Source: a virus
Strand: one strand, 5' to 3'
DNA: 29,860 nt
IMG/VR virus record: IMGVR_UViG_3300047640_000003
Location: 1 to 29,860 of that record
Program-made: the position numbers and the translations under genes
In this document: piece by piece, positions 12,148-29,860 of the stretch
Position numbering within the stretch: position 1 is the first letter of the stretch
How the letters are laid out: each line of letters starts with the position of its first letter
The notes under the pieces: model-generated
The model's database searches: none
What the model was told of the DNA's origin: nothing
Seen by the model: the letters and a program-made list of their open reading frames with translations, nothing else

Positions 12148-15100
12148 ATGGCAGATTCCGTTACCCCCAACTTAGGTTTAACTATTCCAGCTCACGGAGA
12201 GACGTTGACATGGGAGCAGGAGGTGGACAATAATTACTACCTTATTGATACGGTTGTGGGAGCTAACACCGCTGCCATTGCTGCTGAGGTAACCCGTGCT
12301 GAATCTGCTGAGTCTGCGCTTACTGCCAATCTAGCTGCTGAGGTTACAAGAGCCACTAACGCTGAGGCTACCAAGGCTTCTACTACGGCTCTGACGGCTG
12401 AGACCACCCGTGCTGAGGCTGCTGAGGCTCTCCTGCTCCCCATCGCCACGGCTGCATCTACCTATGCTACCCAGACTGCTCTAGCGACTGAAGCCACAGC
12501 AAGAGCCAATGCTGATGCATTGCTGTTGCCTATCACTACTGCATCCAGTACGTATGCCACCCAAGCCAACCTGACGGCTGAAGCATCTACCCGTGCTACC
12601 GCTGATACCACTAACGCTACGGCCATCGCCGCTGAGACCACCAGAGCAACCAACGCTGAGGCTCTGAAAGCTAACACGTCCTCACTAGGCTCCGCTGCTT
12701 TCCAGCCAACCACAGCGTTTGACGCCTCAGGCTCCGCTGCCACCGTGCAGACCAACCTGACCGCTGAAGCTACCACTAGAGCCAATGCAGATGCCCTGTT
12801 GCTCCCGATTAGCACAGCAGCGTCTACCTATGCCACACAGACGGTCCTGAGTGCAGAGACTACCCGTGCTACCACGGCTGAGGCTCTCCTGTTGCCCGTC
12901 ACGACAGCAGCCAGCACCTATGTCCCAAAGACGCTAACCGTAAATGGTCATGCTCTCTCAGCTAATGTTACCGTCAGTGCCTCTGACCTGACTACCGGAA
13001 CCCTGCCTCACGCCCAGCTACCCACCTTACTGGTGGGTGACATCCCTGCTCTGCCTTACGATGCCTCAGGGGCGGCTGCTGGGGTTCAGACCAACCTTAC
13101 TGCTGAAGTGACACGGGCAACTACCGCAGAGGGGCTCCTAGTCGCAAAGAGCACCACCGTGAATGGTCATGCCCTGTCTGGCAACGTCACGGTATCAGCT
13201 TCTGACCTGACAACTGGCACACTCCCAGTTGCTCAGCTTCCAACCATCCCTTATTCAGATTTGAGTGGAACTCCCACCATCCCCGTGGTTGCCATAACCA
13301 CCCCGGTTATGGATGGTACAGCCTCGATTGGCGCAACAGGGAAATGGGCTGATGCTGGGCACATTCACCCAACAGATACCAGCCGTCAGGCTGCTCTAGG
13401 TTTCACACCAGTTGCTAACACGGTTACCGTAAACGGTCACGCTCTGTCTTCCAACGTGACGGTATCAGCTTCTGATTTGACCACTGGGACGCTACCACAT
13501 GCTCAGCTCCCCACCCTGCTGGCTGCTGATGTTCCAAACATCGCTGAGTCACAGGTTACCAACCTTGCCAACGACCTAGCCGGGTGCGAGAAGACCATTA
13601 ACAAGGGTGCTGCCAACGGCTATGCCTCACTGGATGCAACAGGTAAGTTGGTCTCTGCTCAGATTCCGGCTCTAGCCATCATTGACACATGGGTTCCAGC
13701 GTCACAGACGGCCATGCTTGCCCTAGCTGCTCATCAGGGTGATGTTGCTATCCGCTCTGACATCAATGAGACGTTTATCCTCTCGACTCCTGACCCCACC
13801 CAGCTTGCCAACTGGAAACAGATTCTAACCCCAGCCGCACCAGTGCAGAGTGTCAACGGGTATACGGGCATTGTCAATTTGACTATCCCCGCTGCTCAAG
13901 TCAGCAGTGATTGGAATTCAGTTGTCAGCCCCACCCAGATTCTGAATAAGCCCACATTGGGCACCGCCGCTGCTATGGCTTCCTCAGCGTTTGACGCTGC
14001 TGGAACAGCCGCAACTGTTCAGACCAATCTGACAGCAGAGGTAACGAGAGCAACCACGGCAGAGGGTCTGTTAGTTGCTAACACGGTTACCGTCAACGGT
14101 CACGCTCTATCGGCCAACGTTACCGTCAGTGCAAGTGACATCACAACAGGTACGCTGCCTGTTGCCCAGCTCCCCACTATCCCTTACAGCGATTTGTCAG
14201 GGACTCCAGTTATCCCGGTGGTTGCCATCACAACCCCAGTTATGGATGGGACGGCTACGATAGGTTCCATTGGTAAGTTTGCAGACGCTGGACACATTCA
14301 CCCAACGGATACTTCACGCCAAGCTGCTCTTGGCTACACACCCACCAATGCAGCGGTTGTGCCAAGCACAGCCCCAACGGCTGGTCAGGTACTCATTGGC
14401 AACACTGGTGGTACAGCATATGCACCCATTACATTATCCGGCCCTGTGTCTGTCACCGCTGCTGGTGTTACTTCAGTTGCAACGTTGAACCAAAACACCA
14501 CGGGCTCAGCCGCAAGCTTTACAGGCTCTCTAGTGGGAGATGTCACAGGCACCCAAGGTGCTACCACAGTGGGCAAGCTCAATGGAACTTCATTGGCTGG
14601 TCTTGCAACAGGCATTCTAAAGAACACCACAAGCACGGGTGTACCAACGATTGCGGTAGCGGGTACTGACTACGTCATCCCCTCTGCCGTTCCTGTGGTG
14701 GCAACCACCACGCCAGTGATGGACGGTACCGCCACTATTGGCTCACTGGGCAAGTGGGCAGACGCTGGGCATATCCACCCCACAGACACCTCACGCACCA
14801 GCGCAACGGTTGTCCCCAGTACGGCTCCAGCCGCTGGTCAGATTCTTATTGGTAATTCAGGTGGGACAGCTTATGCCCCAGTCTCATTAACTGGGGCTGT
14901 CTCCATTACCTCTGCCGGGGTCACCTCGGTTGCAACCTTGAACCAGAACACAACTGGCTCAGCCGCGAGTTTTACGGGCTCATTAGTGGGTGACGTGACG
15001 GGGACACAGGGTGCCACTGTGGTAGGCAAAGTCAACGGCGCAACTGTACCCGTGTCTGCCCCACTGGTGGGCACCAACAGCAGCGGCCAACCAGTGAGTG

Positions 15101-16452
15101 TTACAACTCTGCCGACCTCGGCTGAACCAGCTCACACAGGAGACGCAACCAACACCGCTGGCTCTCTGGCAATGACCGTCAAGGGTTTGAATGGTACGTT
15201 GCTCTCCGGTCTAGCAACGGGGCTCATTAAGAACACGACCAGTACGGGTGTTCCCACTATCGCGGTGGCTGGCACTGACTATGCTCTACCCAACGCCAAT
15301 ACAACTGGGTCAGCCGCAAGCTTTACGGGCTCCTTGTCTGGCGATGTCACCGGAACTCAAGGCGCAACAGTCGTAGGAAAGCTCAATGGAACCTCATTGG
15401 CTGGTCTAGCTACTGGACTCTTGAAAAACACAACCTCTACTGGTGTTCCTGTTATCGCCACGGCTGGCACTGATTATGTTGTACCGTCAGGCTCCATCAC
15501 GGGTACAGCCGCTAACTTGTCAGGCACCCCGGCTCTACCCAACGGCACCACAGCCACCACACAGACTGCCGGGGACAACTCAACCAAGCTTTCAACCACA
15601 GCTTACGTTGCAACCGCTGTGGCTGCTGAAACGACCAGAGCAACCAACGCTGAGGGGCTCTTAGCTCCTATTGCGAGTCCCACGTTCACAGGCACTGTGG
15701 CTGCTCCGGTTTTCTCAGGTTCGTCAACCGTTGGTGTAGCTGGAGCCTTCCGCAACCTTCGTGCTTCAGCAACTGGACTAAGCACGAATGTATCCGTCAC
15801 TGCTGATGAGGTGATGCTAGAGAACAGCAGCAACTACTACACAACGGTAAGGGGCGTCAGCCTGACCATAGCGGGTACTGCCTCAGGTGCCAATGGTCTG
15901 GATACGGGAACCATCGCAGCTTCCACTTGGTACAGTGTTTGGGTCATCAACAACGGAACTACCACGGCTGGGTTGCTCTCGCTGTCTTCCACCGCACCAA
16001 CTCTGCCTAGCACCTACAGCTATGCTGCACGTATCGGCTGGCTACGTACCGATGCTGTCAATAAGTACCCCCTGCCATTCACTCAGTATGGCCGCAAGGT
16101 TCAATACAAAGTTGCGGGGGGGAACCTGACTGGCTTACCACTCCTATGCAGCGGTACACAGGGTGATGTCACAACCCCAACATGGATAGGCTTCTCGGTA
16201 GTCCCTTACGTTCCTACCACAGCAAGCATCATCAAGCTGGTTGTAACGGGTAACGGAACCTCAAATATCGAAAGCTGTGTCTCCCCTAGCAATACCGCTG
16301 GGACCCTCGCAAGCAGTGCCAACTCTCCAATGGGTGGTGGAGCATCTTGGGGCAAGATTCAGTGCGAACTCATGTTAGAAACCACGACCATCTATGTGGG
16401 AGCCATGACGAACACCTTCATTAACGTGATTGGTTGGGAAGACAACCTGTAA
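12148..16452 (+). CDS. Long repetitive tail fibre protein
   Basis: The start is ATG 12148 (MADSVTPNLGLTIPAHGE), giving 1,434 residues. An in-frame GTG at 12049 lacks support. The N-terminal 40 residues should attach to the tail. Residues 40-260 are strings of AETTRA/AEALLLPI heptad-like coiled-coil repeats. The middle (about 263-1080) is built of three interleaved repeat families (see the repeat entries) typical of trimeric beta-structured fibres, including the widespread GHIHPTDTSR and LGYTP motifs. A PTFTGTV segment precedes a non-repetitive C terminus (about 1190-1434: SASGANGLDTGTI, YSVWVINNG, NVIGWEDNL), the likely receptor-binding tip. No separate chaperone gene is evident. It lies between lysis and packaging genes, not after the tape measure as is common. 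Confidence 0.85.
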   Translation: MADSVTPNLGLTIPAHGETLTWEQEVDNNYYLIDTVVGANTAAIAAEVTRAESAESALTANLAAEVTRATNAEATKASTTALTAETTRAEAAEALLLPIATAASTYATQTALATEATARANADALLLPITTASSTYATQANLTAEASTRATADTTNATAIAAETTRATNAEALKANTSSLGSAAFQPTTAFDASGSAATVQTNLTAEATTRANADALLLPISTAASTYATQTVLSAETTRATTAEALLLPVTTAASTYVPKTLTVNGHALSANVTVSASDLTTGTLPHAQLPTLLVGDIPALPYDASGAAAGVQTNLTAEVTRATTAEGLLVAKSTTVNGHALSGNVTVSASDLTTGTLPVAQLPTIPYSDLSGTPTIPVVAITTPVMDGTASIGATGKWADAGHIHPTDTSRQAALGFTPVANTVTVNGHALSSNVTVSASDLTTGTLPHAQLPTLLAADVPNIAESQVTNLANDLAGCEKTINKGAANGYASLDATGKLVSAQIPALAIIDTWVPASQTAMLALAAHQGDVAIRSDINETFILSTPDPTQLANWKQILTPAAPVQSVNGYTGIVNLTIPAAQVSSDWNSVVSPTQILNKPTLGTAAAMASSAFDAAGTAATVQTNLTAEVTRATTAEGLLVANTVTVNGHALSANVTVSASDITTGTLPVAQLPTIPYSDLSGTPVIPVVAITTPVMDGTATIGSIGKFADAGHIHPTDTSRQAALGYTPTNAAVVPSTAPTAGQVLIGNTGGTAYAPITLSGPVSVTAAGVTSVATLNQNTTGSAASFTGSLVGDVTGTQGATTVGKLNGTSLAGLATGILKNTTSTGVPTIAVAGTDYVIPSAVPVVATTTPVMDGTATIGSLGKWADAGHIHPTDTSRTSATVVPSTAPAAGQILIGNSGGTAYAPVSLTGAVSITSAGVTSVATLNQNTTGSAASFTGSLVGDVTGTQGATVVGKVNGATVPVSAPLVGTNSSGQPVSVTTLPTSAEPAHTGDATNTAGSLAMTVKGLNGTLLSGLATGLIKNTTSTGVPTIAVAGTDYALPNANTTGSAASFTGSLSGDVTGTQGATVVGKLNGTSLAGLATGLLKNTTSTGVPVIATAGTDYVVPSGSITGTAANLSGTPALPNGTTATTQTAGDNSTKLSTTAYVATAVAAETTRATNAEGLLAPIASPTFTGTVAAPVFSGSSTVGVAGAFRNLRASATGLSTNVSVTADEVMLENSSNYYTTVRGVSLTIAGTASGANGLDTGTIAASTWYSVWVINNGTTTAGLLSLSSTAPTLPSTYSYAARIGWLRTDAVNKYPLPFTQYGRKVQYKVAGGNLTGLPLLCSGTQGDVTTPTWIGFSVVPYVPTTASIIKLVVTGNGTSNIESCVSPSNTAGTLASSANSPMGGGASWGKIQCELMLETTTIYVGAMTNTFINVIGWEDNL
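12937..14178 (+). repeat. Fibre repeat family A: four 90-bp copies
   Basis: Copies at 12937-13026, 13156-13245, 13426-13515 and 14089-14178, each encoding TVNGHALSxNVTVSASDLTT followed by GTLPxAQLPT. DNA identity is high but not complete (synonymous changes), so the copies have had time to diverge. Confidence 0.9.
13285..14796 (+). repeat. Fibre repeat family B: three 102-bp copies
   Basis: Copies at 13285-13386, 14218-14319 and 14695-14796, each encoding VVATTTPVMDGTATIGxxGK (first position variants) followed by WADAGHIHPTDTSR. The HIHPTDTSR core is common in tail fibres of unrelated phages. Confidence 0.9.
14330..14358 (+). repeat. 29-bp exact repeat, copy in tail fibre gene
   Basis: Identical over 29 bases to 28562-28590 in the tape measure gene, and in the same codon phase. 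It encodes GYTPTNAAV at fibre residues 729-737. Confidence 0.95.
14494..15390 (+). repeat. Fibre repeat family C: three 93-bp copies
   Basis: Copies at 14494-14586, 14947-15039 and 15298-15390, each encoding NTTGSAASFTGSLxGDVTGT then QGAT.VGK.NG. They are linked by a further repeated segment (SLAGLATGILKNTTSTGVP) after copies one and three, with a variant at 15204-15260. Confidence 0.9.
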
Positions 16453-16466
16453 GGAATAAGCAAAGC

Positions 16467-16736
16467 ATGAGTCAAGGCTGGGGTACATTCGCATGGGGTC
16501 AGGGTGGCTGGGGCATAGGTTATGGCGTCAACACACCCATCATCGTTGCAGGTGCCTCAGTACGCTGCACAGTAATGCTTGGCTCACCACTGTCTTATCC
16601 CAAGCTGAGCCTCGGAACATTCACTACAAGCAACACAGTAACGCTGGGCGTAGCCACCTGCTACCCAACGCTCAACCTTAGGTTAGCAACGTCTTACCCA
16701 ACGGTTGTATTAGGACAGGCATTTATCAATGACTAA
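16467..16736 (+). CDS. Small structural-type protein (89 aa)
   Basis: The start is the ATG at 16467 behind AAGGAATAAGCAAAGC. The N terminus is Gly/Trp-rich (MSQGWGTFAWGQGGWGIGYG), followed by repeated short beta-strand-like units (VTLGVATCYPTLNL, LATSYPTVVL) rich in Thr, Val, Leu and Tyr-Pro. This looks like a small beta-structured virion or fibre-associated protein. It immediately follows the fibre and overlaps the next gene by eight bases. No family recognised. Confidence 0.65.
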   Translation: MSQGWGTFAWGQGGWGIGYGVNTPIIVAGASVRCTVMLGSPLSYPKLSLGTFTTSNTVTLGVATCYPTLNLRLATSYPTVVLGQAFIND

Positions 16737-17043
16737 ACTGACTATCTACCAAGGCAATACAGCAGAGATTAAGCTGACAGGCATACAGAATGCTGACACT
16801 CTAGCCTTTATCACGGGCTCTACAATCACCTGCACTCTCTACACCCCAGCGGGTGTGGCAGTCACCGGTGCCATCAACCTGAGTATGTCTGACGTTGCTG
16901 GAACACCCGGCACGGTCAATACCTTCATCCCCGGCACGGTCACGCTGCCAGAGGGTAACTACTATCTCACTTTCAGCGGAACAATCCCCACAGGTGACAC
17001 CTTCACTTGGTATCAGCCAGTTGAAGTCAGAGTAAGGCAGTAA
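16729..17043 (+). CDS. Small beta-rich virion protein (104 aa), possibly baseplate or tip
   Basis: 104 residues with the start MTKLTIYQGNTAEIKLTGI and regular beta-sandwich-like strands through TPAGVAVTG, GNYYLTFSGTIPTGDTFTWY and VEVRVRQ. This resembles a general class of small phage Ig-like structural proteins located beside fibres (pattern I..G.....+.....G....GA.....L.G.....G.Y.L...). The family is uncertain. It lies in the same transcript as the fibre and the terminase, ending two bases before the small terminase gene. Confidence 0.6.
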   Translation: MTKLTIYQGNTAEIKLTGIQNADTLAFITGSTITCTLYTPAGVAVTGAINLSMSDVAGTPGTVNTFIPGTVTLPEGNYYLTFSGTIPTGDTFTWYQPVEVRVRQ

Positions 17044-17045
17044 CG

Positions 17046-17468
17046 ATGCCCAAACCACGCAAACCAACGTCAGCGTTAGCCATGTCTGGCACTCTTCAAG
17101 ACCATCCGGGCAGGTACAAGGATAGAGCCAATGAGCCGACTAACTTGGATGAGTTGGGACGGGCACCAACATACATGTCCGATGAAGAGAAGAAAATCTG
17201 GAAAGAGTTAGCTGGGAATGTTACCCCCGGATGGCTCACCAGAGCAGACAGACACACCGTTGAACTCACCGTCACGCTCATAGCTGAGCTAAGAGCCAGA
17301 ACGATTGACAAGCCCGGTAGAACGTCACTCACGGCCCTCTTATCCAAGCTCGGAATGAACCCCTGTGACCGTACCAAGGTACAGGTACCCCAGAAGCCCA
17401 AACAAGACAATGACCCGTGGGCTGATTACCCGTCAGCCACAGATGAACCAGAAGAGAAAGTCCAGTAA
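17046..17468 (+). CDS. terS: Terminase small subunit, P27 family
   Basis: DNA-recognition subunit of the packaging motor. 140 residues: a basic N terminus (MPKPRKPTSALAMSGTLQDH), then PTYMSDEEKKIWKELA, helical WLTRADRHTVELTVTLIAEL, and the family hallmark near the C terminus (LLSKLGMNPCDRTKVQ), i.e. LG..P..R.KV. This combination and the order small terminase, large terminase, portal, protease and capsid support the assignment. It is followed after four bases by the large subunit. Confidence 0.85.
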   Translation: MPKPRKPTSALAMSGTLQDHPGRYKDRANEPTNLDELGRAPTYMSDEEKKIWKELAGNVTPGWLTRADRHTVELTVTLIAELRARTIDKPGRTSLTALLSKLGMNPCDRTKVQVPQKPKQDNDPWADYPSATDEPEEKVQ

Positions 17469-17472
17469 GTTA

Positions 17473-19164
17473 ATGAGAGATTACGCAGCAATAGCCAGAC
17501 AGTACGCTGAAGATGTTGTAGCAGGAACCATACCCAATTGTAAGTGGGTGCGGTTGGCTTGCCAGCGTCATCTGGATGACTTACAGAAGGTAGACAACCC
17601 TGAGTATGAATACAGGTTTGAACCTCGTAAGGCTGAGGCTGTGTGCTCTTTCATCGAACGGCTACCCCATGTACTGGATGACTTCAAGAAGCGTGCTGGC
17701 AAGAAGGAACTCATTACCCTTCAACCATGGCAAGTGTTCGTTGTGTCCTGCATCTTTGGGTGGTTATACAAAGACTCAGGGTTGAGGCGTTATCGCCAAG
17801 CCTACATCTGTGTGCCTAAGAAGAATGGCAAGTCTACCCTCATGGCTGGCATCGGGCTCTACATGCTCTGCTGTGATGGGGAATCCTCTGCCGTAGTGCA
17901 GATGGGTGCCACCGCTGAGAAGCACGTTATCAAGACTCTCTTTGACCCGGCCAAGCAGATGGTGAGTAAGTCGCCCGGTCTCAGAGCAAAGTTTGGTGTC
18001 AAGGTAAACGCCCGTAGCATCGTCATTGAGGATAACGGCTCCGTACTTGAACCTGTCATTGGTGACCCCGGTGACGGCCCTTCAATCTCCTGTGGCATCC
18101 TCGATGAGTTCCACGAAGCTGTTACACCTGTGCTCTACAACAAATTCAAGTCTGGTGGAATGTCACGCTCTCAGCCATTGGTCATTGTCATCACCACGGC
18201 TGGTGAAAATATTGCCTCACCTTGTCACCTATTGCAGGAGCAAGCTGAGATGGTGCTCTCAGGTACTTTCAATGATGAGCAAACCTTCACCATCATCTAC
18301 ACCTTGGATGAGGATGACGATTGGACTACAGAGGCTTCACTCCGCAAAGCGAACCCCAACTATGGTGTCAGCGTCAATGGTAAGACCCTACGCAATGACC
18401 AAGAGGTAGCAATACAGAATGCTGCTGAGCAGAACAACTTCCGTATCAAGCACCTCAACCAGTGGTTGAATGCCAGCGTTAGCTGGATGAACATGAGCAA
18501 GTGGAATGCTCTGGGTGACGCCAAGATTGAGGAGTTTGAGGGTGAGGAGTGTTGGCTTGGTCTTGACATGTCCATCAAGTGGGACTTGACCGCTGCTATC
18601 CGGCTATTCAGAAAAGAGATTGACGGTAAGATTCATTACTTCGTCTTCCCTAGATTTTACTTACCTTCTGACCGCACATCTGACCCAGCCGCGCAACACT
18701 ACGCCAAGTGGGTACATGAGGGTCACCTCATTGCAACAGAAGGCTCAGAGATAGAGCCAGCGGTAGTGGCCAAGGATTTGATTGAGGATTCAAAGAAGTA
18801 TGCAGTTAAGGAACTGGACTTTGACCAATGGGAATCAGCGTCCGTAACTAATGAGTTCGGAACGGCAAGTGGGGTAATGGTCTTTCAAGTTCCCCAAGCA
18901 GCTCAGTATCTATCCTTCCCTGCCAAGGAACTCTACACCATGGTGCTGTCCGGGCGCATTCACCATGATGGTAACCCGGTCATGACGTGGTGTGTAAGTA
19001 ACGTGGTGGCGAAGTATTACAAAGACAATCTGATACTTAACAAAGCGCGTGACGAAAACAAGATAGACGGAGTGGATGCTCTGCTTAACGCCCTCTATCG
19101 CTGCCTAGAATCCCCAATGACACCAAAGTACCAGAAGTACCAACGAATTCAGTTTTTCAACTAA
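17473..19164 (+). CDS. terL: Terminase large subunit (HK97 type)
   Basis: ATPase-nuclease that drives and cuts DNA during packaging. The chosen start is ATG 17473 (MRDYAAIARQYAEDVVAG), 563 residues. ATG 17443 inside the small subunit is an alternative, and neither has a strong ribosome site. Walker A-type PKKNGKS at residues 115-121; Walker B CGILDEFHEA with D211 and catalytic E212; the coupling motif VIVITTAGE near 240; nuclease Asp D365 in WLGLDMSIKWD; and a final Asp in ENKIDGVDALLNAL. Length and motif order are normal for the family. Confidence 0.95.
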   Translation: MRDYAAIARQYAEDVVAGTIPNCKWVRLACQRHLDDLQKVDNPEYEYRFEPRKAEAVCSFIERLPHVLDDFKKRAGKKELITLQPWQVFVVSCIFGWLYKDSGLRRYRQAYICVPKKNGKSTLMAGIGLYMLCCDGESSAVVQMGATAEKHVIKTLFDPAKQMVSKSPGLRAKFGVKVNARSIVIEDNGSVLEPVIGDPGDGPSISCGILDEFHEAVTPVLYNKFKSGGMSRSQPLVIVITTAGENIASPCHLLQEQAEMVLSGTFNDEQTFTIIYTLDEDDDWTTEASLRKANPNYGVSVNGKTLRNDQEVAIQNAAEQNNFRIKHLNQWLNASVSWMNMSKWNALGDAKIEEFEGEECWLGLDMSIKWDLTAAIRLFRKEIDGKIHYFVFPRFYLPSDRTSDPAAQHYAKWVHEGHLIATEGSEIEPAVVAKDLIEDSKKYAVKELDFDQWESASVTNEFGTASGVMVFQVPQAAQYLSFPAKELYTMVLSGRIHHDGNPVMTWCVSNVVAKYYKDNLILNKARDENKIDGVDALLNALYRCLESPMTPKYQKYQRIQFFN

Positions 19165-19176
19165 AGGTAGATAACT

Positions 19177-20784
19177 ATGGCAATACTCAGTCTCAATCTG
19201 CAAGCACCTGAACCAGAGAAACGCTCTGCGTTAGAGAACCCACAGGTGTCTCTCTCCGCTGCCCTGTTAGGTATGGGTATGGGCTCCTACACCGACTCTA
19301 ACGAGCTGGTGAATGAGCATACCGCCCTACAGGTGCCCAGCGTCCTTGCCTGTGTAAAGATTCTTGCGGATGGGCTCAGCCAACTCCCCATGCGTGTGTA
19401 TGAGGAACTGGGGCGTGGGCGTAAGCCAGCTAAAGACCACTACCTTTATTACCTGCTCACCCAACGTCCCAACCCTGAGATGAGTGCAGTGACGTTCCTG
19501 AACGTCATGATGACCCATGCCGTGTTATGGCAGAACGCTTACGCTGAGGTATTCCGTGACGCTGACGGGCACCCATACGCACTCTACCCACGCAACCCTG
19601 ACCGGACTAAGCCATGGCGTGACCCGGCTACTGGGGTGCTGATGTTCAAGACTACGGATACACCCAACCACGCTGAGCGGGTCATTGCTGCCAAGAATAT
19701 GCTCCACATCACCGGGTTCAGTCTGGATGGGCTCTCAGGCTCCTCACTGGTGACTTGTGCCCGTCAAGCTATCGGGTTGTCCATGGTGGCTGAACGCTTC
19801 GCAGCACGCTTCTATTCAAACGGAGCGAGACCGGGATTCTTCCTACAGCCGGACTCGCCATTGTCCCCAGAGGATATGGCTCTCCTCAAGGAAGACGTTG
19901 AGGTGCTCAGCTCGGGTACCAACGCTTGGCGTGTGGGTGCCCTGCCTACCGGAATCAAGGTTGTCCCTGTGGTGACTGACCCCTCTGCTATGCAGGAATA
20001 CATCAACACGCAGAAGTTCAGCCGTGAGGAGATTGCAGCCGTCTTTGGTGTTCCCCCGTACCGCATTGGAGCCTCTGAGAAGACGCTCAAGAGCACGATT
20101 GAGGCAATGTCTCAAGACTTCCTGACCACGCTGCTTCCGTGGATTGAACGATTCCAACAGGAGTTCCAGTACAAGCTGCTGCCACCAGTTGGACGGGCGT
20201 CTGGCAAGTACACCGTCTTGTTCTACAAGAATGCGCTCCTGACCATTGATACAGCCACCAGAAACGCCATGTTCACCCAAGGCAGAAGCGGTGGTTGGTA
20301 CACCGTCAACAACATCCTTGAGCAGCTCGACATGGAACCCATCGGGCCTGAGGGGGATACCTACCTACGGCCACTCAACATGGTTGACTCAGGCTCAGCC
20401 GCGACTGAGGTAGAGACTGATGATGAGCCAGAGGAGACAGAAGACCCTGACGAAGCTAAGACAGCTACTAGAGCCCGTACCCTGTATGCACCCATCTTCA
20501 AGGATGCATTCACCCGGCTTCAACACCGTAGCAAGCAGGATTTAGCCACCATTACCCAGACATTGAGCCCCATTACCACGGGGATGGGTGCCTATTTCCG
20601 CACCTCCAACACCGCTGGTACGGCTGAGGTTGAGGCTGTTAACAGATACCTCAAGGGTCTGGAAAGCAGAGTAAGTAAGTCAGATGCTGATGCAGAGTTC
20701 CAAAGGTTAGTTAAGTCCGTTGTATTCGCAGTAGAAGCAGATGCAGCCGAAGCTAGAGCCAGAAAGGTATTAGAAAATGAGTAA
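19177..20784 (+). CDS. Portal protein (HK97 family)
   Basis: Dodecameric portal at the capsid vertex through which DNA enters and to which the tail joins. 535 residues. Conserved pieces are LQVPSVLACVKILADGLSQL, LLTQRPNPEMSA, LWQNAYAEVFRD, the FSREEIAAVFGVPPYRIG segment and IERFQQEFQYKLLP. The C-terminal extension (about 400-535) has a very acidic linker (VETDDEPEETEDPDEAKT) and a helical tail, making it longer than many HK97 portals. The start at 19177 follows AAAGG. It overlaps the protease gene by eight bases. Confidence 0.94.
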   Translation: MAILSLNLQAPEPEKRSALENPQVSLSAALLGMGMGSYTDSNELVNEHTALQVPSVLACVKILADGLSQLPMRVYEELGRGRKPAKDHYLYYLLTQRPNPEMSAVTFLNVMMTHAVLWQNAYAEVFRDADGHPYALYPRNPDRTKPWRDPATGVLMFKTTDTPNHAERVIAAKNMLHITGFSLDGLSGSSLVTCARQAIGLSMVAERFAARFYSNGARPGFFLQPDSPLSPEDMALLKEDVEVLSSGTNAWRVGALPTGIKVVPVVTDPSAMQEYINTQKFSREEIAAVFGVPPYRIGASEKTLKSTIEAMSQDFLTTLLPWIERFQQEFQYKLLPPVGRASGKYTVLFYKNALLTIDTATRNAMFTQGRSGGWYTVNNILEQLDMEPIGPEGDTYLRPLNMVDSGSAATEVETDDEPEETEDPDEAKTATRARTLYAPIFKDAFTRLQHRSKQDLATITQTLSPITTGMGAYFRTSNTAGTAEVEAVNRYLKGLESRVSKSDADAEFQRLVKSVVFAVEADAAEARARKVLENE

Positions 20785-21493: not shown

Positions 21494-21527
21494 GGGGGTG
21501 ATTCCGGGGTAACCCATATCTACTTAT

Positions 21528-21559
21528 AACCCAGCCTGAGATGGCTGGGTTATTTGTTT
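21528..21559 (+). terminator. Terminator between protease and capsid genes
   Basis: Perfect 9-bp stem AACCCAGCC (21528-21536)/GGCTGGGTT (21543-21551), 6-base loop, then TTATTTGTTT-like tail. It would stop or reduce rightward transcription before the capsid gene and also faces the end of the antisense HNH gene. Confidence 0.75.
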
Positions 21560-22153
21560 CTACTCGTAAGCGTTCCGGTATTGCATGGCCCTTGACAGCC
21601 ACTTGGTGTCTGTCTCAATTCTTCCAATCAGAAGGTTGCAGCTAGTACAAAGCAGACCCCGTACACACTTTCCACATGATGTCTTCCCCGGACAGCACGA
21701 GTGGTCATGGTCAACAGCAAGTCTCCTACCCCCTTCTTTAGGGGCTGTGGAGCAGAGAGCACAATGACCACCTTGTCTCTTCAATTTAGCGTTGTACTCC
21801 TCCGATGTCATCTTGTACTGATACATAAGGGACTGGTCACGGAGCTTCTGCTTATACTCCGCTGGGCTCTCCTCCCTCTGCTTATCACGCCAGCGTCTTT
21901 GAGATGCACCTCCATCGGCGGCTACCCTCCGGTACTGGCTACGCTTCTGTTTGTTCCCTTCCCGTGATGCCCACTCCCTCTGGTACTCAGCCAGCCGCTT
22001 CCTGATGTCAGGATTACTTCTACGCTGCTTGGAATACTCCGCTGCACATTCCCTACAGTATGTCTGGTACTTCCCATTGCTAACTCCGAAAGAAGTAACA
22101 GGGAGTCTTACTCCCTCACCGTTGTTGTGCCTAGAACATAGTTTCTTATCCAT
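21560..22153 (-). CDS. Endonuclease VII-like HNH nuclease, antisense within the head module
   Basis: The start is ATG 22153 (MDKKLCSRHNNGEGV) behind GGGGAG, giving 197 residues. The C-terminal part is an endonuclease VII-type HNH fold: C131-x2-C134 (HCALCSTAP), DHDH at 148-151, C169-x2-C172 and N173 (LLCTSCNLLIG). An upstream YCRECAAEYSK segment adds another zinc-type pair, and the centre is a long basic helix (PAEYKQKLRDQSLMYQYKMT). Free-standing enzymes of this type are often homing endonucleases. Its antisense placement between protease and capsid, flanked by a terminator and a structured leader, fits a mobile insertion in the late operon. Confidence 0.9.
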   Translation of the reverse strand: MDKKLCSRHNNGEGVRLPVTSFGVSNGKYQTYCRECAAEYSKQRRSNPDIRKRLAEYQREWASREGNKQKRSQYRRVAADGGASQRRWRDKQREESPAEYKQKLRDQSLMYQYKMTSEEYNAKLKRQGGHCALCSTAPKEGGRRLAVDHDHSCCPGKTSCGKCVRGLLCTSCNLLIGRIETDTKWLSRAMQYRNAYE

Positions 22154-22238
22154 AACTCCCCTAACTAAGTGTGTATGGATAAGTAATACTGACAAACTTA
22201 CACAATTCCTGAAATTCAAGTGAAGAAACTTGGTGGTC

Positions 22239-22328: not shown

Positions 22329-22401
22329 CAGCCTACCGCAACCATCCCCGCTGGATGTGTCCTGCGTAAGCCCAAAAAACTAATACATAGGACATACCCC
22401 G

Positions 22402-23562
22402 ATGACTGCTCAACAGTTGCGTGAACAACGTGCAAAGCTGATTGCTGATGCACAGGCTGTAATCCCTGAAGATACTTCGAAATTTACCAGTGAACTCCGT
22501 ACCAAGGCAGAGGCTATGTTTGCTGACGCTAAGGGTCTGGATTCTCTTATTGCCACGATGGAAGCGGAAGAGCGTTCTACACTTGAATCCCGTAGCCGTG
22601 ACATGCAGCTCCCACAGGTTGGTGAGCACGCTGTAACTGAAGACCGTAGTGCAGAAGTAAAGGCTTCACTCCGTAGCTACCTCCAGACGGGTAAGGTTGA
22701 AACTCGTGACCTGACTGTCTCTGCCGATGGTGTGATGATTCCCACCTTTGTAGCAGACCCCGTGTTGGCCAAGAAGGCTCCGGGCTTCATCCTTGACCTA
22801 GTGGGCAAGATGAATACCAAGACTGGTGCCCCGGTGAAGGTTCCCTACTGGAACGATTTGTCTAACTCGTTCGTTCTGAACTCCACAGGTATTACCACGA
22901 CTGACCCGGTTGTCACTGATGGCCCTACCATCAGCATTGATGACTATCGCTTCAACCCGCTCTTGCTGGATAACAGCTTGATTCAGGATGCATCGTATGA
23001 CATCGAAGGCGCGGTGGTTAATGCTATTGCTCTCCGCTATCAGCGTGACATGAGCAAAGCCATCACGCTGGGCAACTCCAGCAACATCGCTGGTCTTACC
23101 TCTTGCACGGCAACTGTACAGACTGGCACCACACTGGTTGTGGCGTACAAGGATTTCATCAACACCTTTGCTGCCCTCGACCCGGCCTATGCTGCTAACG
23201 CTGTCTGGACGATGAACAACACGACCCTAGCGGCTGTGATGAACATTGTAGATGCTAACCAACGTCCGCTGTTCCTTAACTATACGGATGGTGGAGCCTC
23301 TGGCTTCGCTGGTTCCATCCTTGGCTACTCCGTCAAGTTGAACCAGTACCAGCCCAACATTGGTGTAGCTGCTCAACAGTGCCATTTTGGAGATTTTTCC
23401 CAAGGGTACTACTTCCGCACCCTTGACACCGGAATCATGGTGAAGAGACTTGCAGAGCGTTACGCTGAACTCAACCGTGTGGGTTATGTCGCATTTACCC
23501 GTGTCGGTGGCGTGTTGGTAAACGCTGGTACTCCTCCAATCGTCGCAATGCTTGGTAAGTAA
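22402..23562 (+). CDS. Major capsid protein (HK97 fold)
   Basis: 386 residues. The N-terminal 105 residues are a highly charged helical delta/scaffold domain (REQRAKLIADAQAVIPED, KFTSELRTKAEAMFADA), normally removed by the prohead protease. The capsid domain shows VKVPYWNDLSNSFV, an E-loop region, the spine helix (YDIEGAVVNAIALRYQRDMSKAI), WTMNNTTLAAVMNIVD, the P-loop region and the ending GYVAFTRVGGVLVNAGTPPIV. Length and order are typical. It is preceded by a structured leader and followed by a hairpin, consistent with high expression. Confidence 0.95.
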   Translation: MTAQQLREQRAKLIADAQAVIPEDTSKFTSELRTKAEAMFADAKGLDSLIATMEAEERSTLESRSRDMQLPQVGEHAVTEDRSAEVKASLRSYLQTGKVETRDLTVSADGVMIPTFVADPVLAKKAPGFILDLVGKMNTKTGAPVKVPYWNDLSNSFVLNSTGITTTDPVVTDGPTISIDDYRFNPLLLDNSLIQDASYDIEGAVVNAIALRYQRDMSKAITLGNSSNIAGLTSCTATVQTGTTLVVAYKDFINTFAALDPAYAANAVWTMNNTTLAAVMNIVDANQRPLFLNYTDGGASGFAGSILGYSVKLNQYQPNIGVAAQQCHFGDFSQGYYFRTLDTGIMVKRLAERYAELNRVGYVAFTRVGGVLVNAGTPPIVAMLGK

Positions 23563-23568
23563 CAAACT

Positions 23569-23595
23569 GGGGAGCCTCGCAACAAGGGGCTCCCC
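23569..23595 (+). terminator. Hairpin after the capsid gene (not a standard terminator)
   Basis: Perfect 8-bp stem GGGGAGCC (23569-23576)/GGCTCCCC (23588-23595), 11-base loop. No T run follows, so it may be a partial attenuator or an mRNA 3'-end stabiliser that lets capsid be made in excess over the downstream genes. Confidence 0.5.
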
Positions 23596-23608
23596 ACCTC
23601 CTCTTACC

Positions 23609-23794
23609 ATGCAGATACTTATCACACAGCACATTGCTACAGCTCCCACTGTCCATGCCCCTTATGGAGAGGTTATCACCGTGTCTGAGGAGTTAGGTCA
23701 GGCATGGGTAGAAGCTGGCATTGCTTCACTCGTAGTAGAGACAGCCGTCTCCCCTAAGTTGGCTGAGACCGCAGTAACTAGGAAAAGACGCTAA
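23609..23794 (+). CDS. Small head protein (61 aa), head-tail region
   Basis: The start is ATG 23609 (MQILITQHIATAPTVHAPYG). It reads like the small protein that often follows the capsid gene in HK97-like phages (Y-x-x-GE...V.....A...W..AG.A). The conserved piece is VITVSEELGQAWVEAGIASLV. The upstream region is poor in ribosome-site purines (CCTCCTC), so translation may rely on coupling or on the post-capsid hairpin. Its stop overlaps the next start by one base. Confidence 0.65.
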   Translation: MQILITQHIATAPTVHAPYGEVITVSEELGQAWVEAGIASLVVETAVSPKLAETAVTRKRR

Positions 23795-24432
23795 TGGGAA
23801 TCTCACTACAACGTGTAGAGGTTACAGGTACTGAACCAGTCACGCTGGCTGAGATGAAATCTCACCTACGTGTGGATTTTCCAGATGATGACTCCTTGAT
23901 TTCAAGTCTGATTACCGCTGCTAGACAGCGTGCTGAAAACATCACAGGACGTTGTATCCCCACCAGTAACTGGATTTATGGGCTGGATACATTCCCTTAC
24001 GGTTGGACTAACCAGAGTGCCCCAGCCCGGTCAGGTTTAACACAGTTCATGGGGTGGTGGGCTAATGCTCAGACCATCCGCATTCCTCAGGCTCCGCTAC
24101 AGTCCATCACAAGCATTCAGTACATACCCGGTGGGGGTGGGTCTTATCTCACACTAGACCCCTCTACTTACACCGTGGATGCCAACAGTAATCCAGCCGT
24201 GGTCTTCCCTATCGTCAACTACTACTGGCCAGCCTGTTACGCAGTCAAGAATACCGTATTGATTAGCTTTGTAGCTGGGTATGGAGATAACTGCCCAGAG
24301 GATGTCAAGGTAGCCATTCGTATGCTGGTTGCTTATTGGTATGAGAACCGTCAGGACAATGCAGTAACACCGACTGTGGTTAATAGCCTTCTATCGAACT
24401 ACAGAAGCCAGCCTTGTGGGTACGTGCGCTAA
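23794..24432 (+). CDS. Head-tail connector (gp6-like / phiE125 gp8 family)
   Basis: 212 residues. The N-terminal motif EPVTLAEMKSHLRVDFPDDDSLI, then SSLITAARQRAENITGRCI, is the signature of the gp6-like adaptor family. This protein forms the ring docking below the portal. The middle carries a longer beta insertion (PLQSITSIQYIPGGGGSYLT) and the end is PEDVKVAIRMLVAYWYENR. It is translated from ATG 23794, which overlaps the preceding stop. Confidence 0.87.
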   Translation: MGISLQRVEVTGTEPVTLAEMKSHLRVDFPDDDSLISSLITAARQRAENITGRCIPTSNWIYGLDTFPYGWTNQSAPARSGLTQFMGWWANAQTIRIPQAPLQSITSIQYIPGGGGSYLTLDPSTYTVDANSNPAVVFPIVNYYWPACYAVKNTVLISFVAGYGDNCPEDVKVAIRMLVAYWYENRQDNAVTPTVVNSLLSNYRSQPCGYVR

Positions 24433-24764
24433 TGGAACCCGGAAAGCTCAAGAAGCGGTTGTCATTCCAGCGTCTAAGCTCCGCTACCAATTCCTTTGGT
24501 GAGGCTACCCAGTGGGTTACCTACTACACCTGTTGGGGCTCAGTTCAGCAGCTCAGAGCCCAGCTTATCTATGGCACTGGTGAGCAGGTAGGCAAGGAGA
24601 CTTATGACATCAGGGTTAGGCACACCACAACCCAGAGTATCAATATTGGCGATAGATGCCAGTTAGCGGATGGCACCACCTTCCAGATAGATGGGTTGAT
24701 GAACATTCAGATGCTTAACCGCGAGATTCAGATACTCAGCCACGTCATTAACGAGACCAGCTAA
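24432..24764 (+). CDS. Head closure / head-tail joining protein (SPP1 gp16-like)
   Basis: 110 residues starting MEPGKLKKRLSFQRLSSATN, with the characteristic GE.T..W.......W..... pattern (FGEATQWVTYYTCWGSVQQL), IRVRHTTTQSINIGDRC and a closing FQIDGLMNIQMLNREIQIL. It fits the phage head-tail joining family that seals the connector after packaging. The ATG is in a TAATG overlap with the upstream gene. Six residues upstream of this start in the same frame are not supported. Confidence 0.85.
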   Translation: MEPGKLKKRLSFQRLSSATNSFGEATQWVTYYTCWGSVQQLRAQLIYGTGEQVGKETYDIRVRHTTTQSINIGDRCQLADGTTFQIDGLMNIQMLNREIQILSHVINETS

Positions 24765-25192
24765 TGGATACCGTTGAGGTAGTTGGGTTAGATGACCTAC
24801 TCACAGCCTTCTCTGAGATGCAACCCCAGATGGTTAAGAGAGCGTTACATGACGCCCTTGACTTAGGTGGAACGGTTCTACAGACGGCTCTAGCGGAAGC
24901 AGCACCACGCTATGAAGGTGATGCAACTCCACCCCACCCGGCTGGACAGCTCGAAGCTGACATAAGACGGGTAGTGAAGATGAAGCCAGCAGAGGGTCAG
25001 GGAATAGTAGCCGTAGGCCCGTCAGCAGCCAGCTTCTATGGGGCTTTTGATGAGTTCGGAACGAGTCATCAGGAAGCTAAGCCATGGGTAAGACCAGCGT
25101 TTGATAGCTCCGTTGACGAAGCTATGGATGTGTTTGACCAAGTCTTGAGTGCCTACATAGACGAATTCTGTAAAGAGCAAGGCGGTAAGTAA
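24764..25192 (+). CDS. Neck / tail-completion protein (HK97 gp10-like)
   Basis: 142 residues. The pattern VGLDDLLTAFSEMQPQMVK, ALDLGGTVLQTALAEAAP, a PP..AG.L..DI segment, then FYGAFDEFGTSHQEAKPWVR and PAFD, is the standard HK97 gp10 family signature (Y...E.GT....A.PF.RPA). It acts at the head-tail interface. Start and stop are both one-base overlaps with its neighbours. Confidence 0.9.
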   Translation: MDTVEVVGLDDLLTAFSEMQPQMVKRALHDALDLGGTVLQTALAEAAPRYEGDATPPHPAGQLEADIRRVVKMKPAEGQGIVAVGPSAASFYGAFDEFGTSHQEAKPWVRPAFDSSVDEAMDVFDQVLSAYIDEFCKEQGGK

Positions 25193-25575
25193 TGCTGTTA
25201 GAGGGGCTGTACACACTACTCCAATCATGCACCCCTCTGACCAACATTGTTGGTACACGGATATACCCCCTTGTGCTGCCAAAGAATTACACAGTACCAG
25301 CGGTCACGTTCGGTCAGGTGTCTAGTACCACTGAAGTCCATCTGGATAGGACATACGTAGAGACCACTTCTGTTGACATTAACAGTTGGGCTCTTACTTA
25401 CTCCGATGCTGCTAAAGCACAAGACGCTATTAACACCCTGCTGAGCATGTACCAAGGCACGCTATCAGACGGAACGGTTGTGCTCTATACGCAGAGCAGT
25501 ACCCACCCAGATGAGTTTGAGCATGATTCGTTGCTCTATCGCTGTACCACTACGTTCACCATTCAACACACATAA
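25192..25575 (+). CDS. Tail terminator protein (DUF3168 type)
   Basis: 127 residues. The pattern LEGLYTLLQSCTPLTNIVGT, then RIYPLVLPKNYTVPAVTF and DINSWALTYSDAAKAQDAIN, fits the tail-completion/terminator family that caps the tail tube at its head-proximal end. It sits in the expected position, between the gp10-like gene and the tail tube. The ATG overlaps the preceding stop. Confidence 0.87.
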   Translation: MLLEGLYTLLQSCTPLTNIVGTRIYPLVLPKNYTVPAVTFGQVSSTTEVHLDRTYVETTSVDINSWALTYSDAAKAQDAINTLLSMYQGTLSDGTVVLYTQSSTHPDEFEHDSLLYRCTTTFTIQHT

Positions 25576-25595
25576 CTTTCTAGGAGCAACACATC

Positions 25596-26018
25596 ATGTC
25601 AACCAAAGCACAGAGCGGTCTAGGCTCAGCAGTAAAGATTGGCTCTACTCTCATCGGAGAAGTCCAGTCAGTAAAGCAAAGCGGCTGCAAGTGGGACACA
25701 GAAGACGCTACTAACTTCGCCTCAACCGCTAAAGAATTCGTAGCCACCATCATTGACTGGGGTGAGTTTGCAGTTGAAGCAAAGCGGGTATCTACCGATG
25801 CTGGGCAGCTTGCCGTAGTAGCTGCATTCGGCACGGGTGCAGCCACAGCCTTCACCATCACGCTACTTAAAGAAGCGGGGCAGGTAACAACTGGTGACAG
25901 CTATTCATTCAATGGAATCGTTACTGAGGCTGACATTTCACTGGATGCCACTAAGCTAACTCCCTTCTCTTTCAAAGTAAAAGTAACCGGAGCTGTCACC
26001 TTCACAGAAGGCGCATAA
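25596..26018 (+). CDS. Major tail tube protein, copy 1 (intact)
   Basis: 140 residues, the position-appropriate tail tube protein: between tail terminator and chaperones, with GEVQSVKQSGCKWDTEDATN, FASTAKEFVATIIDWGEF, VEAKRVSTDAGQLAVVAAFG, and the late strands FTITLLKEAGQVTTGDSYSF and PFSFKVKVTG. The ribosome site TAGGAGCAACACATC is good. A second, closely related copy follows 34 bases later but is frameshifted. Intact reading makes this one the probable functional subunit. Confidence 0.87.
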   Translation: MSTKAQSGLGSAVKIGSTLIGEVQSVKQSGCKWDTEDATNFASTAKEFVATIIDWGEFAVEAKRVSTDAGQLAVVAAFGTGAATAFTITLLKEAGQVTTGDSYSFNGIVTEADISLDATKLTPFSFKVKVTGAVTFTEGA

Positions 26019-26052
26019 CCCCCTAGTCACTGACTTCATAAAGGAATAAATC

Positions 26053-26480
26053 ATGGCCACAAAAGCAACTGATGGTGGGGGTACCGTTCTAGCAGTAGGA
26101 GCTACTCCCACCGCAATAGGTGAGATTCAAAGTGTTAAGCAGTCTGGTGCCAAGTGGGATACGGAGGAAGCCACCAACATGGGCTCCACAGCCAAGGAGT
26201 TTGTGGCACTGTTCTCGACTGGGGAGAGTTCGCTATTGAAGCTAAGCGGGTCTCTACCGACGCTGGACAACTGTTAGTGGTAGCTGCATTCAACACAGGT
26301 GCCCTTACCTCATTCACCCTTACCCTTCCCAAGGAAGGCACTGAAGCTACCACTGGTGACAAGTACGTGTTCAACGCCCTTGTAACTGAGCTAGACGTGT
26401 CTGCTGAATATAACAAGCTGGTGCCGTTCACCTGCAAGCTTAAGGTTGTCGGTCAGCCTACCTTTACGCAAGGAAGCTAA
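26053..26480 (+). pseudogene. Major tail tube protein, copy 2, single-base frameshift
   Basis: Starts MATKATDGGGTVLAVGATPT and matches copy 1 until KEFVALF. It then reads out of frame from about 26215 and stops at 26277. The matching continuation (DWGEFAIEAKRVSTDAGQLL and on, to PTFTQGS) is in the -1 frame from 26217 to the stop at 26480. The total of 428 bases is one short of a 142-codon gene. No classical slippery heptamer is at the break (CTGTTCTCGAC). The downstream half is well conserved, so the defect is recent or a sequence error; a programmed event is less likely. A duplicated tail tube protein is unusual. Confidence 0.85.
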
Positions 26481-26487
26481 TAACTAG

Positions 26488-26841
26488 ATGGCAAAGAAAC
26501 CCAACACCCCCACCGCTATTAAATCTGTACTCCCCAAAGTCAAGCTCAGTGTTGATGGGGTTGACTACTGGTTAGTGTACGACTTCAACGCCCTTGCTGA
26601 GGGTGAGGCACAGACTGGTATCAACCTTCTCCAATGCCTTAACTTTCAGAACCTGAACGCTACCAAGATTCGTGGCTTGCTCTACGCTGCCCTTCTCCGT
26701 CTCCAGCCGGATACAACCATTGAAGATGCTGGGAACCTTCTAGGCTCCGCTGATTCCTCAGCGGTAATGAATGCCATCGTGGAAGCCTATCTGGGTAGCC
26801 AACCAAAACCAGAGCCTGAGACTGAACCAAAAAACGAGTAA
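26488..26841 (+). CDS. Tail assembly chaperone, short form (lambda G-like)
   Basis: 117 residues read in zero frame: MAKKPNTPTAIKSVLPKVKL, DYWLVYDFNALAEGEAQTGI, NLLQCLNFQNLNATKIRGLL, then the Glu/Pro-rich end PEPETEPKNE. This is the small chaperone that coats the tape measure during tail assembly. It sits between the tail tube and the tape measure. Its last codons contain the -1 frameshift site that links it to the downstream T-like frame. The ATG follows the pseudogene stop by eight bases. Confidence 0.85.
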   Translation: MAKKPNTPTAIKSVLPKVKLSVDGVDYWLVYDFNALAEGEAQTGINLLQCLNFQNLNATKIRGLLYAALLRLQPDTTIEDAGNLLGSADSSAVMNAIVEAYLGSQPKPEPETEPKNE

Positions 26842-27209
26842 CCGGGGAGCGTGAGCTTACCCCGGAAGAAGTCTGGATGAACATGTGGACGTTTGCCAAG
26901 TTCAACCTCCACTTAACAGATGAAGAGTTTGGGCAGTTAACCCCACGTCAGTACCACGCCATGAAGCAACGGTTTGAGCAAGAGCAAGAGCATAGGGATT
27001 GGTACAACGCTTGTGTCTGTACCTCCATTATCAACTACTCCCTGTCCAGACCCAAGAAACCCGTACAGATAACAGACTTCATGCCTACCCGGTCAGCCTC
27101 TGTCCAGCCTGTAAAGAGAGTTAAGAGGATTACCAAGGCTAACCGTAAGCAGATAGCTGACTCACTCCGTGCAATGTTCGCTTCCGCTAGACCACTGGAT
27201 AAGAGGTAG
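26488..27209 (+). CDS. Tail assembly chaperone, long frameshift product (lambda G-T-like)
   Basis: After slippage at 26835 the frame continues as RVTGERELTPEEVWMNMW, then TFAKFNLHLTDEEFGQLTPR, to the basic end ADSLRAMFASARPLDKR at 27209: 116 residues from the first frame plus 124 from the second, about 240 in all. The T-like part is typical in length and joins the tape measure to the tube. An ATG at 26877 inside the second frame has no good ribosome site, so the fusion is the better reading. In lambda a few per cent of ribosomes shift, so the long product should be the minor one. Confidence 0.85.
26829..26865 (+). promoter_or_regulatory. -1 ribosomal frameshift signal (A AAA AAC plus stem-loop)
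   Basis: Slippery heptamer AAAAAAC at 26829-26835, placed in zero frame as CCA-AAA-AAC. The zero-frame stop TAA is at 26839-26841. Six bases after the heptamer comes a perfect 6-bp GC stem, CCGGGG (26842-26847)/CCCCGG (26860-26865), with a 12-base loop. The geometry is that of known -1 sites. Confidence 0.9.
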
Positions 27210-27227
27210 TTCCGAGTAATAGACACC

Positions 27228-27715
27228 ATGATTCTCTACATGATTGTGAACAAGATTAACGGGAAGTATTACATTGGGAAAACAACTACCAGCCTAAAGC
27301 ACAGATGGTACTTCCATAAGTATAACACAGCCCATGACGGTAAAACATACCTCTATCGGGCGATGCGTAAGCATGGGGTTGATAACTTTGAGATTCACGA
27401 GCTGGGCTCTCATTACAAGTCTGATGAAGAGTTAAAGAAGTGGGAAGCTGCTTTCATCCAGCTATTCAAGTCCCAAGACCCCAAACGTGGGTACAACCTC
27501 ACCGCTGGTGGGGATGGAGCAACAGGATATACCCATTCCGCTGAAACCCGTAAAAGATGGGTGACGTTAGACGGGGTAAGCCCAAGTCCGCTGAGACACG
27601 TAAACGGATGAGTGACGCAATGCGAAGTAGACCACTCGACCCTAACCCAACACCGAACGCTCTAGCTAGTCGTAGACACACCGAACGAGTACGGGCAAGG
27701 TTAGCTGCCCAATAG
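27228..27715 (+). pseudogene. GIY-YIG homing endonuclease with NUMOD3 tail, frameshifted
   Basis: GIY-YIG core: LYMIVNKINGKYYIGKT (YIG at residues 15-17), R26 in HRWYFH, and E73 in WEAAFIQLF; the tail has NUMOD3-like HSAETRKR DNA-binding repeats. The zero frame runs to 27611, but the meaningful continuation (MGDVRRGKPKSAETRKRMSD ... RLAAQ) is in the -1 frame from 27557 to 27715, so one base is missing near 27555-27557 in an A-rich spot. The total of 488 bases is one short of 163 codons. Like the HNH gene, it lies between two structural genes, typical of a homing element. It may still make a catalytic domain. Confidence 0.85.
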
Positions 27716-27732
27716 CAACCTAAGGAGTCCCC

Positions 27733-29860
27733 TTGAGTGAAAACATATTAAAGAACGTCTCAGTACGCATAACTGCGGACACGCAGCCGTTCCAATCTGA
27801 GTTAGACAAGGCTGCACGAGTAGCCAAGTCCAAGATGGCGGAGATTAAGGCTGCTACTCAGAAAGAGATGCAGGAGTCTAGCCACTCCATGGCCCTCTTT
27901 GGGGATGCGTTCGGGGTAACAATCCCTAGACATATCCGCACCTTCATCAATACCCTTCCCGGTGTCTCAGCAGCTATGTCTACAGCGTTCAACGCTGTGG
28001 CTATTCTAGTTGTCATTGATGTGCTGGTAAAGGCTGGTGAGAAGGTTAAGCAACTGGCTGAAGCCTATAGCGAGTCAGGCAAGAAAGCCGGGGAGATGTC
28101 CAACGCTTTTAGCAAGGTGTTGACCCCCATTCAGAATGCCAACAACTCCCTAGAGGTACAGAAAGACCAGATACAGAAGAGCATTGACAAGCTTGAACAC
28201 AAGCCCCACAACGCTATCAAAGATGCCATAGATGAGGCTATTGAGAGTGCAGACACCCTACTTGAGAAGGTGAGAGCAACCTCCGAAAAGATTTCAGAGA
28301 CATTACGTAAGCAGTCCGTCAGCCGCATCAAGGGGTTCATCACTGGTCAGGACAGCAACGCTGGCATAGCCACTGGCTACGATAACTTCAGCAATCGCTT
28401 TGAGCGGGTCATTGAAGATTACAAGGGCAAGCTGAGTAACGCCAAGCTGGGTGGAGCAACTCAGGCTCAACTGGATGACATTAGGAAAGAAGCCCGTACC
28501 GCTCTTACCAAGGTATCTGAAGACTACCGCACGGAATACCAGAGCGGGGATGCTTCCCACATTGGCTACACACCCACCAATGCAGCGGTTCGAGAACAGA
28601 AGAAATACAACCCCAATGCTACCAGCCCCGGCTATGACTACTCAGCCACCATCAAGCAGCTCACCACGGTAGACCAAGCACGACAGGGGCAGCTACAGCA
28701 CGCCCTCAACCAGTTTGACCTGTCTGACCTGAAGGCTAGACAGGGTAAGGATGAAGCTGGCAAAGGTGATGCCTCAGCTCAGATGAAGCATTGGGAAGAC
28801 CAGCTCCAAGATGCCATTCACCAAGCATGGACTAAGGGAAACATCTTCTCTGTGTCAGAGACTGCTGACTTCTGGGGCTCGAAGCTGGCTCAGGCACGTC
28901 CAGAGAACCGCAGAGCCGTTGAAGCCAAAGCTGACTCTGCTAACAAAGAGTTGACCAGCCACACCAACATGGTGATGGAGGAGCAACGTGAGGCAGATGC
29001 TAAGAAGGCTGCTGAAGCTATCAAGAAGGAAGATGAAGCAGCGGTTAAGGCTGGTGAGGCTTACAACAAAACTCAGGTAGCCATCGGTAAATATAATGAG
29101 GAGCTACTCAAGGGCGTCAAGTACGGTGAAGAGTTAGCCTCTAAGACCATCAATTGGCAGGAACACACTGGGCAGATTAGCCAAGCGGATGCAGCCCAGC
29201 GTCTGCTGAATGTTCACACTGAAGCCTACAAGGCTGAGATGGCTTCTCTAGCCGATGAAGTACAGCGGCTCACTGAATGGTACCTATCGGGAAATCTCAC
29301 TGACAGCGAGTTCCAAGCCAAGCTTGGTGCAAACACATTAGCTCAACAGAAGGTAAAGGGTGACTACGGGCTTCAGCATGGTGAGGATGTCCATAACACC
29401 CAGCTACAGTCAGCCTCACAAGGCTTCCATGATTTCTTCTCAGACTTTGTGGCGGATGCGGATAACTCAGCTAAGCAGGTACACCAGCTCCTCAGCACAC
29501 TGACTACCGGGTTAAACGCCAACATCGTTAAAGCCATTGACGGAGAGAAGACCAATTTTGGTCAAGTCTTCAAGCAGATGGGTGACCAGATGATGGAGTC
29601 CAGCCTTAAGAAGATGGAGTCTGCTGGCATGAAGGCTCTCGGACTGGATAAGTTGTTTGGCGGTGGCAAGCCTGACGGGTCTGCTGAGAAGCCATTCCAC
29701 GTTGTACAGGGTGGAGTAACAGGCAGCGGAGGGGCAGCGGGTGGGTTACTAGGTGGGCTATTTAGTAAGTGGTTCGGTGGTGGTGGTATTGGCAATGGCC
29801 AAGCAGCCGCTGGCATTGGTACCACCCCCGTTAGCGAACTCCCTAACTTGGGACTGATGT
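27733..29860 (+). CDS. Tape measure protein (partial, C-terminal end beyond window)
   Basis: The start is TTG 27733 with AAGGAG seven bases upstream. No stop occurs in 709 codons to the edge. Opening SENILKNVSVRITADTQPFQ and SELDKAARVAKSKMAEIK fits the N terminus of tape measure proteins, followed by long helical, Gln/Ala/Lys/Glu-rich coiled-coil stretches and a short hydrophobic helix (AFNAVAILVVIDVLVK, about 86-100). Near the edge is a Gly-rich, less helical segment (GGGKPDGSAEKP, GGAAGGLLGGLFSKWFGGG). The protein sets tail length and is ejected with the DNA. GYTPTNAAV (278-286) is identical at DNA level to a segment in the tail fibre. Confidence 0.9.
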   Translation, partial: MSENILKNVSVRITADTQPFQSELDKAARVAKSKMAEIKAATQKEMQESSHSMALFGDAFGVTIPRHIRTFINTLPGVSAAMSTAFNAVAILVVIDVLVKAGEKVKQLAEAYSESGKKAGEMSNAFSKVLTPIQNANNSLEVQKDQIQKSIDKLEHKPHNAIKDAIDEAIESADTLLEKVRATSEKISETLRKQSVSRIKGFITGQDSNAGIATGYDNFSNRFERVIEDYKGKLSNAKLGGATQAQLDDIRKEARTALTKVSEDYRTEYQSGDASHIGYTPTNAAVREQKKYNPNATSPGYDYSATIKQLTTVDQARQGQLQHALNQFDLSDLKARQGKDEAGKGDASAQMKHWEDQLQDAIHQAWTKGNIFSVSETADFWGSKLAQARPENRRAVEAKADSANKELTSHTNMVMEEQREADAKKAAEAIKKEDEAAVKAGEAYNKTQVAIGKYNEELLKGVKYGEELASKTINWQEHTGQISQADAAQRLLNVHTEAYKAEMASLADEVQRLTEWYLSGNLTDSEFQAKLGANTLAQQKVKGDYGLQHGEDVHNTQLQSASQGFHDFFSDFVADADNSAKQVHQLLSTLTTGLNANIVKAIDGEKTNFGQVFKQMGDQMMESSLKKMESAGMKALGLDKLFGGGKPDGSAEKPFHVVQGGVTGSGGAAGGLLGGLFSKWFGGGGIGNGQAAAGIGTTPVSELPNLGLM
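28562..28590 (+). repeat. 29-bp exact repeat, copy in tape measure gene
   Basis: Identical to 14330-14358 in the fibre gene, including codon phase. The flanks differ. Here it encodes GYTPTNAAV within an otherwise helical, non-fibre-like context (GDASHIGYTPTNAAVREQKK). Confidence 0.95.

Follow-up and report, generated by a model that had tools for sequence, protein, structure and literature searches.

An exact 29-bp repeat shared in frame by the tail fibre and tape measure genes of a phage suggests short-patch templated replacement

The window, meaning the whole stretch of DNA analyzed here (29,860 nucleotides), is an IMG/VR record with a prophage end. It carries a miaB-like gene (3-938; UPF0004 and Radical SAM domains) and an integrase gene (1145-2008), after which the order is lysozyme, fibre, terminase, portal, capsid and tail genes. 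Directly after the integrase lies a gene for a Mom-like DNA modification protein (2027-3223; Pfam Mom, 3e-12; PHROG 1384). Related tail-protein genes stand in tandem at 26154-26480 and 25596-26018, the second of which, in the window, has a frameshift close to its start; an intact copy of 142 aa is present in record L004 (8320-8748). About 57 bp, at 21522-21578, are missing from the near-identical record L092. An endonuclease VII-type gene on the minus strand (21560-22219) has its 3' end in this interval, which also contains a terminator-like hairpin.

The tail fibre gene occupies 12148..16452 on the plus strand (the ORF list starts it at an upstream GTG, 12049) and was recognized from its ORF, PHROG tail and tail fibre hits, and internal repeats D1-D4. 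Two further records of this phage, L092 and L093, stop at 16143 and 16684, positions inside and just after this repeat-rich gene, which suggests poor assembly of the fibre or variation of it from sample to sample. Among GenBank phages, nothing related to the fibre stretch was found.

The tape measure gene (27733..29859, plus strand) is truncated by the window end and complete in L004, where it encodes 811 aa. Its identity rests on the L004 ORF, a Tape_meas_lam_C match (PF09718; 1.2e-6, 28.9 bits versus a cut-off of 23) and PHROG 339, tape measure (5e-4). Lambda-type features are present, namely the C-terminal Tape_meas_lam_C domain and a body predicted, at low confidence, to be mostly helical. 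A structure model had a mean pLDDT of 39.5, too poor for use; it placed residues 272-283 between two helices, and we gave this no weight. Just upstream lies a GIY-YIG homing endonuclease gene (27228..27611, plus strand; Pfam GIY-YIG, 3.6e-10; PHROG homing endonuclease). This gene is lineage-specific, in that it was not found in the related records L006, L088 and L089, where the neighbouring genes are present. Among the proteins scanned, no recombinase gene was identified.

The original prediction for this DNA was of an exact 29-bp repeat shared by the fibre and tape measure genes in the same codon phase, and we confirmed both its coordinates and its phase. The sequence TTGGCTACACACCCACCAATGCAGCGGTT occurs at 14330-14358 in the fibre gene (copy 1) and identically at 28562-28590 in the tape measure gene (copy 2), both on the plus strand. 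Both are read CTT/ATT GGC TAC ACA CCC ACC AAT GCA GCG GTT, and both translate as GYTPTNAAV, preceded by L in the fibre and by I in the tape measure, where the peptide forms residues 278-286. The end of the GIY-YIG gene lies 951 bp upstream of copy 2. The edges of the repeat are sharp, with flanking bases agreeing at 13/60 positions upstream and 12/60 downstream. With up to three mismatches allowed, the window holds no further copy of the 29-mer or of its 23-base core (dinucleotide-shuffle expectation for the core, 0). Apart from the two exact copies, no stretch agrees with the 29-mer at more than 19/29 positions. With just two copies, a dispersed repeat family was rejected.

It had also been claimed that a 29-base match is beyond chance, and a survey of repeats in 81 non-redundant phage loci (1.22 Mb), together with codon shuffles, supports this. 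Among direct repeats whose copies lie over 2 kb from each other, numbers drop by ~0.4 per base and end at 22 bp; the next-longest exact ones measure 22, 22, 21 and 21 bp. Inverted repeats were also examined, with the first 67 loci. By our own estimate, a geometric extrapolation of the repeat-length tail, ~2e-5 29-mers are expected per such window. When codon order was shuffled in 2000 trials, the longest match between the fibre and tape measure genes was 10-16 bp, against the 29 observed; the next-longest real match between these genes is 11 bp. A codon-collision model gives 1.3e-9 expected nine-codon matches for the pair. Granted that each gene encodes GYTPTNAAV, the probability that all nine codons agree is ~4e-5. 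Simple chance is a poor account of the repeat, a judgment weakened by the number of windows read at the first stage.

In the fibre, a motif of this type has counterparts. The L008 fibre orthologue, 82% identical locally and collinear over 602 bp, reads LGFTPTNAGIV at the repeat site, and a paralogous site in the same fibre as copy 1, at 13396, reads LGFTPVANTV. LGYTP is a common fibre string, found also in L110. Judged by these sequences, the GYTPTNAAV-type motif is native in the fibre. The full nonapeptide, in any codons, was found in just one viral record of the scanned collection, a near-identical relative of this phage. Such confinement led us to reject a common fibre motif as the explanation.

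The motif had been described as foreign to the tape measure, and here the aligned relatives say otherwise. Tape-measure relatives are found in L005, L006 and L007 (45% identical) and in L088 (42%); none was detected among 50,697 GenBank phage records, and a pattern scan of GTDB species genomes likewise found none. At the aligned site L005-L007 have HIGYMPYNQAVLEQKKYNPN (HIGYMPYNQAV) and L088 has LGYTPYSKAK, versus HIGYTPTNAAVREQKKYNPN in the window. G278, Y279, P281 and A285 are invariant. The observation named in advance as refuting the original prediction, orthologues bearing the peptide, was made in part: the orthologues carry the GYxP core, which is native and old in the tape measure, and lack the whole nonapeptide. 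At T282 and A284 the window tape measure differs from all orthologues, yet agrees with the fibre and with the fibre orthologue.

The DNA at this site divides into two halves. The L088 tape measure has CTTGGATACACACC, of which 13/14 bases equal the fibre in the 5' half, and shares little with it in the 3' half. What distinguishes the window tape measure from its relatives is the second half, CACCAATGCAGCGGTT. Alignment of L006 through the repeat site is ungapped over 769 bp, and 17 of the 29 bases agree at the site itself, which is ordinary for this gene. Copy 2 also lies within a larger segment (28273..28701, plus strand; residues ~181-323) that was delimited by sliding codon-aligned DNA identity. 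A comparison of the tape measure genes of L006 (L006:7031-9346) and L088 (L088:5878-8151) showed 38-66% DNA identity at residues ~181-323 and mostly 85-100% elsewhere, except for the first residues. The segment is thus an intragenic cassette that has been exchanged between these two otherwise close relatives.

We think it probable, though well short of certain, that the repeat arose by short-patch templated replacement, with the fibre as source and the tape measure as target, at a stretch of GYTP-coding microhomology that was already in place. Fibre sequence would have overwritten no more than 29 bp of the tape measure gene, by template switching or by annealing of a small single-stranded fragment. 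Both genes would already have encoded GY[T]P with shared microhomology (form CTTGGnTACACACC), which would have served as the seed, and the replacement would have been in frame with length unchanged. Such a seed seems to have existed in the tape-measure family, since 13/14 bases of the L088 sequence match the fibre. Copy 1 is the likely donor and copy 2 the likely recipient, because T-N-A stands in the L008 fibre (T-P-T-N-A) but gives way to Y-N-Q or Y-S-K in the tape-measure orthologues. Codon usage lends no support to the fibre as origin (likelihood ratio 0.39) and is uninformative on direction. We infer the copying event, its fibre-to-tape-measure direction and its cause; no close relative without the patch was found in the collections, the nearest unpatched tape-measure orthologues being 44-47% identical in protein. 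Counting against replacement, identity to L006 is ordinary at the site, so that the patch is marked out solely by its match to the fibre, and homology beyond the patch edges is lacking; that the scanned proteins yielded no recombinase gene also counts against it. Break repair near the GIY-YIG gene is a plausible trigger and may have been the cause. The fuller proposal, that repair around this gene as a new arrival made the sub-30-bp in-frame patch in a swap-prone tape-measure cassette and that the fibre repeats serve as a reservoir of donor sequence diversifying another structural gene, we consider improbable.

The two genes could instead have converged, with two native GYxPxNxAV-like stretches, unrelated in their location, coming to agree at 29 bases through ordinary substitution. 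We regard this, the leading rival, as possible but doubtful. The motif is native in both proteins, similarity that predates the match spans about half of it (13/14 for the first half in L088, 17/29 overall in L006) and divergence of the site from its orthologue is ordinary; moreover, many windows were read, so that one case stands out. Weighing the other way are the extrapolated figure of ~2e-5 per window, the failure of codon shuffles to exceed 16 bp and the ~4e-5 probability of codon agreement given the peptide. It is quite improbable that the 29-mer is a functional DNA or RNA site kept in two late genes, for instance one recognized by a nuclease or regulator that the phage encodes. Exact identity that includes third codon positions fits such a site, as does the possession of GIY-YIG and HNH/endonuclease VII-type genes by this phage, but there are two copies only and no degenerate extra ones, DNA-level conservation is absent in L006, L088 and L008, and both positions are accounted for as conserved protein sequence.

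Assembly artefact, or a chimera joining the two genes, was raised by the original prediction and is very unlikely. The fibre site is seen in one record only, and the records of this phage that end in or beside the fibre gene (at 16143 and 16684) hint at a region that may assemble poorly. But both sites are collinear with orthologues across the repeat (769 bp for L006, 602 bp for L008) and both reading frames are intact. An identical tape-measure site is present in a second record, L004/L093, which departs from the window by 6 mismatches and 1 gap over 12-13 kb (12.1 kb) and does not extend to the fibre site. A length of 29 bp is below the k-mer sizes common in final assembly. The same prediction spoke of ectopic conversion or insertion, and of this the idea of transfer between genes is reasonable, whereas insertion fails. 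Had a fibre-derived fragment been inserted into the tape measure, the exactness of the repeat would fit, but the gene has not lengthened (the 769 bp shared with L006 are ungapped) and the orthologues share the motif core where the sequences align. The ungapped alignment excludes insertion.

Short-patch templated replacement of this sort has partial precedents. Harms et al. (PNAS, 2016; doi 10.1073/pnas.1615819114), cited in PMC7192050 and PMC6321871, reportedly described short segments of intragenomic origin that replace sequence with little homology and leave clustered differences. Short-patch illegitimate recombination is a known kind of event (PMC7192050, PMC6321871), and it resembles our case in that the clustered differences arise in place and large flanking homology is unnecessary. 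It is described for bacterial genomes and transformation; here it would concern two phage structural genes, with the replaced ancestor unavailable. Ectopic gene conversion by homologous recombination likewise copies between two loci of one genome at constant length, but the extended homology around the tract is absent here (13/60 and 12/60). Since the sequences are not homologous beyond the 29 bp, conversion of the ordinary homologous kind would find no partner for pairing. The site-bearing tape-measure segment swapped between L006 and L088 recalls phage mosaicism, which arises through illegitimate or homologous exchange; the 29-bp match differs in joining non-homologous genes of one phage rather than orthologues of two.

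At present this is a single case without a parent sequence, a curiosity and not a new system. Point mutations and very short ectopic patches are not easily told apart. If the replacement is real, pieces shorter than 30 bp can be transferred in frame between two identifiable, non-homologous genes of one phage, and could pass for clustered substitutions.
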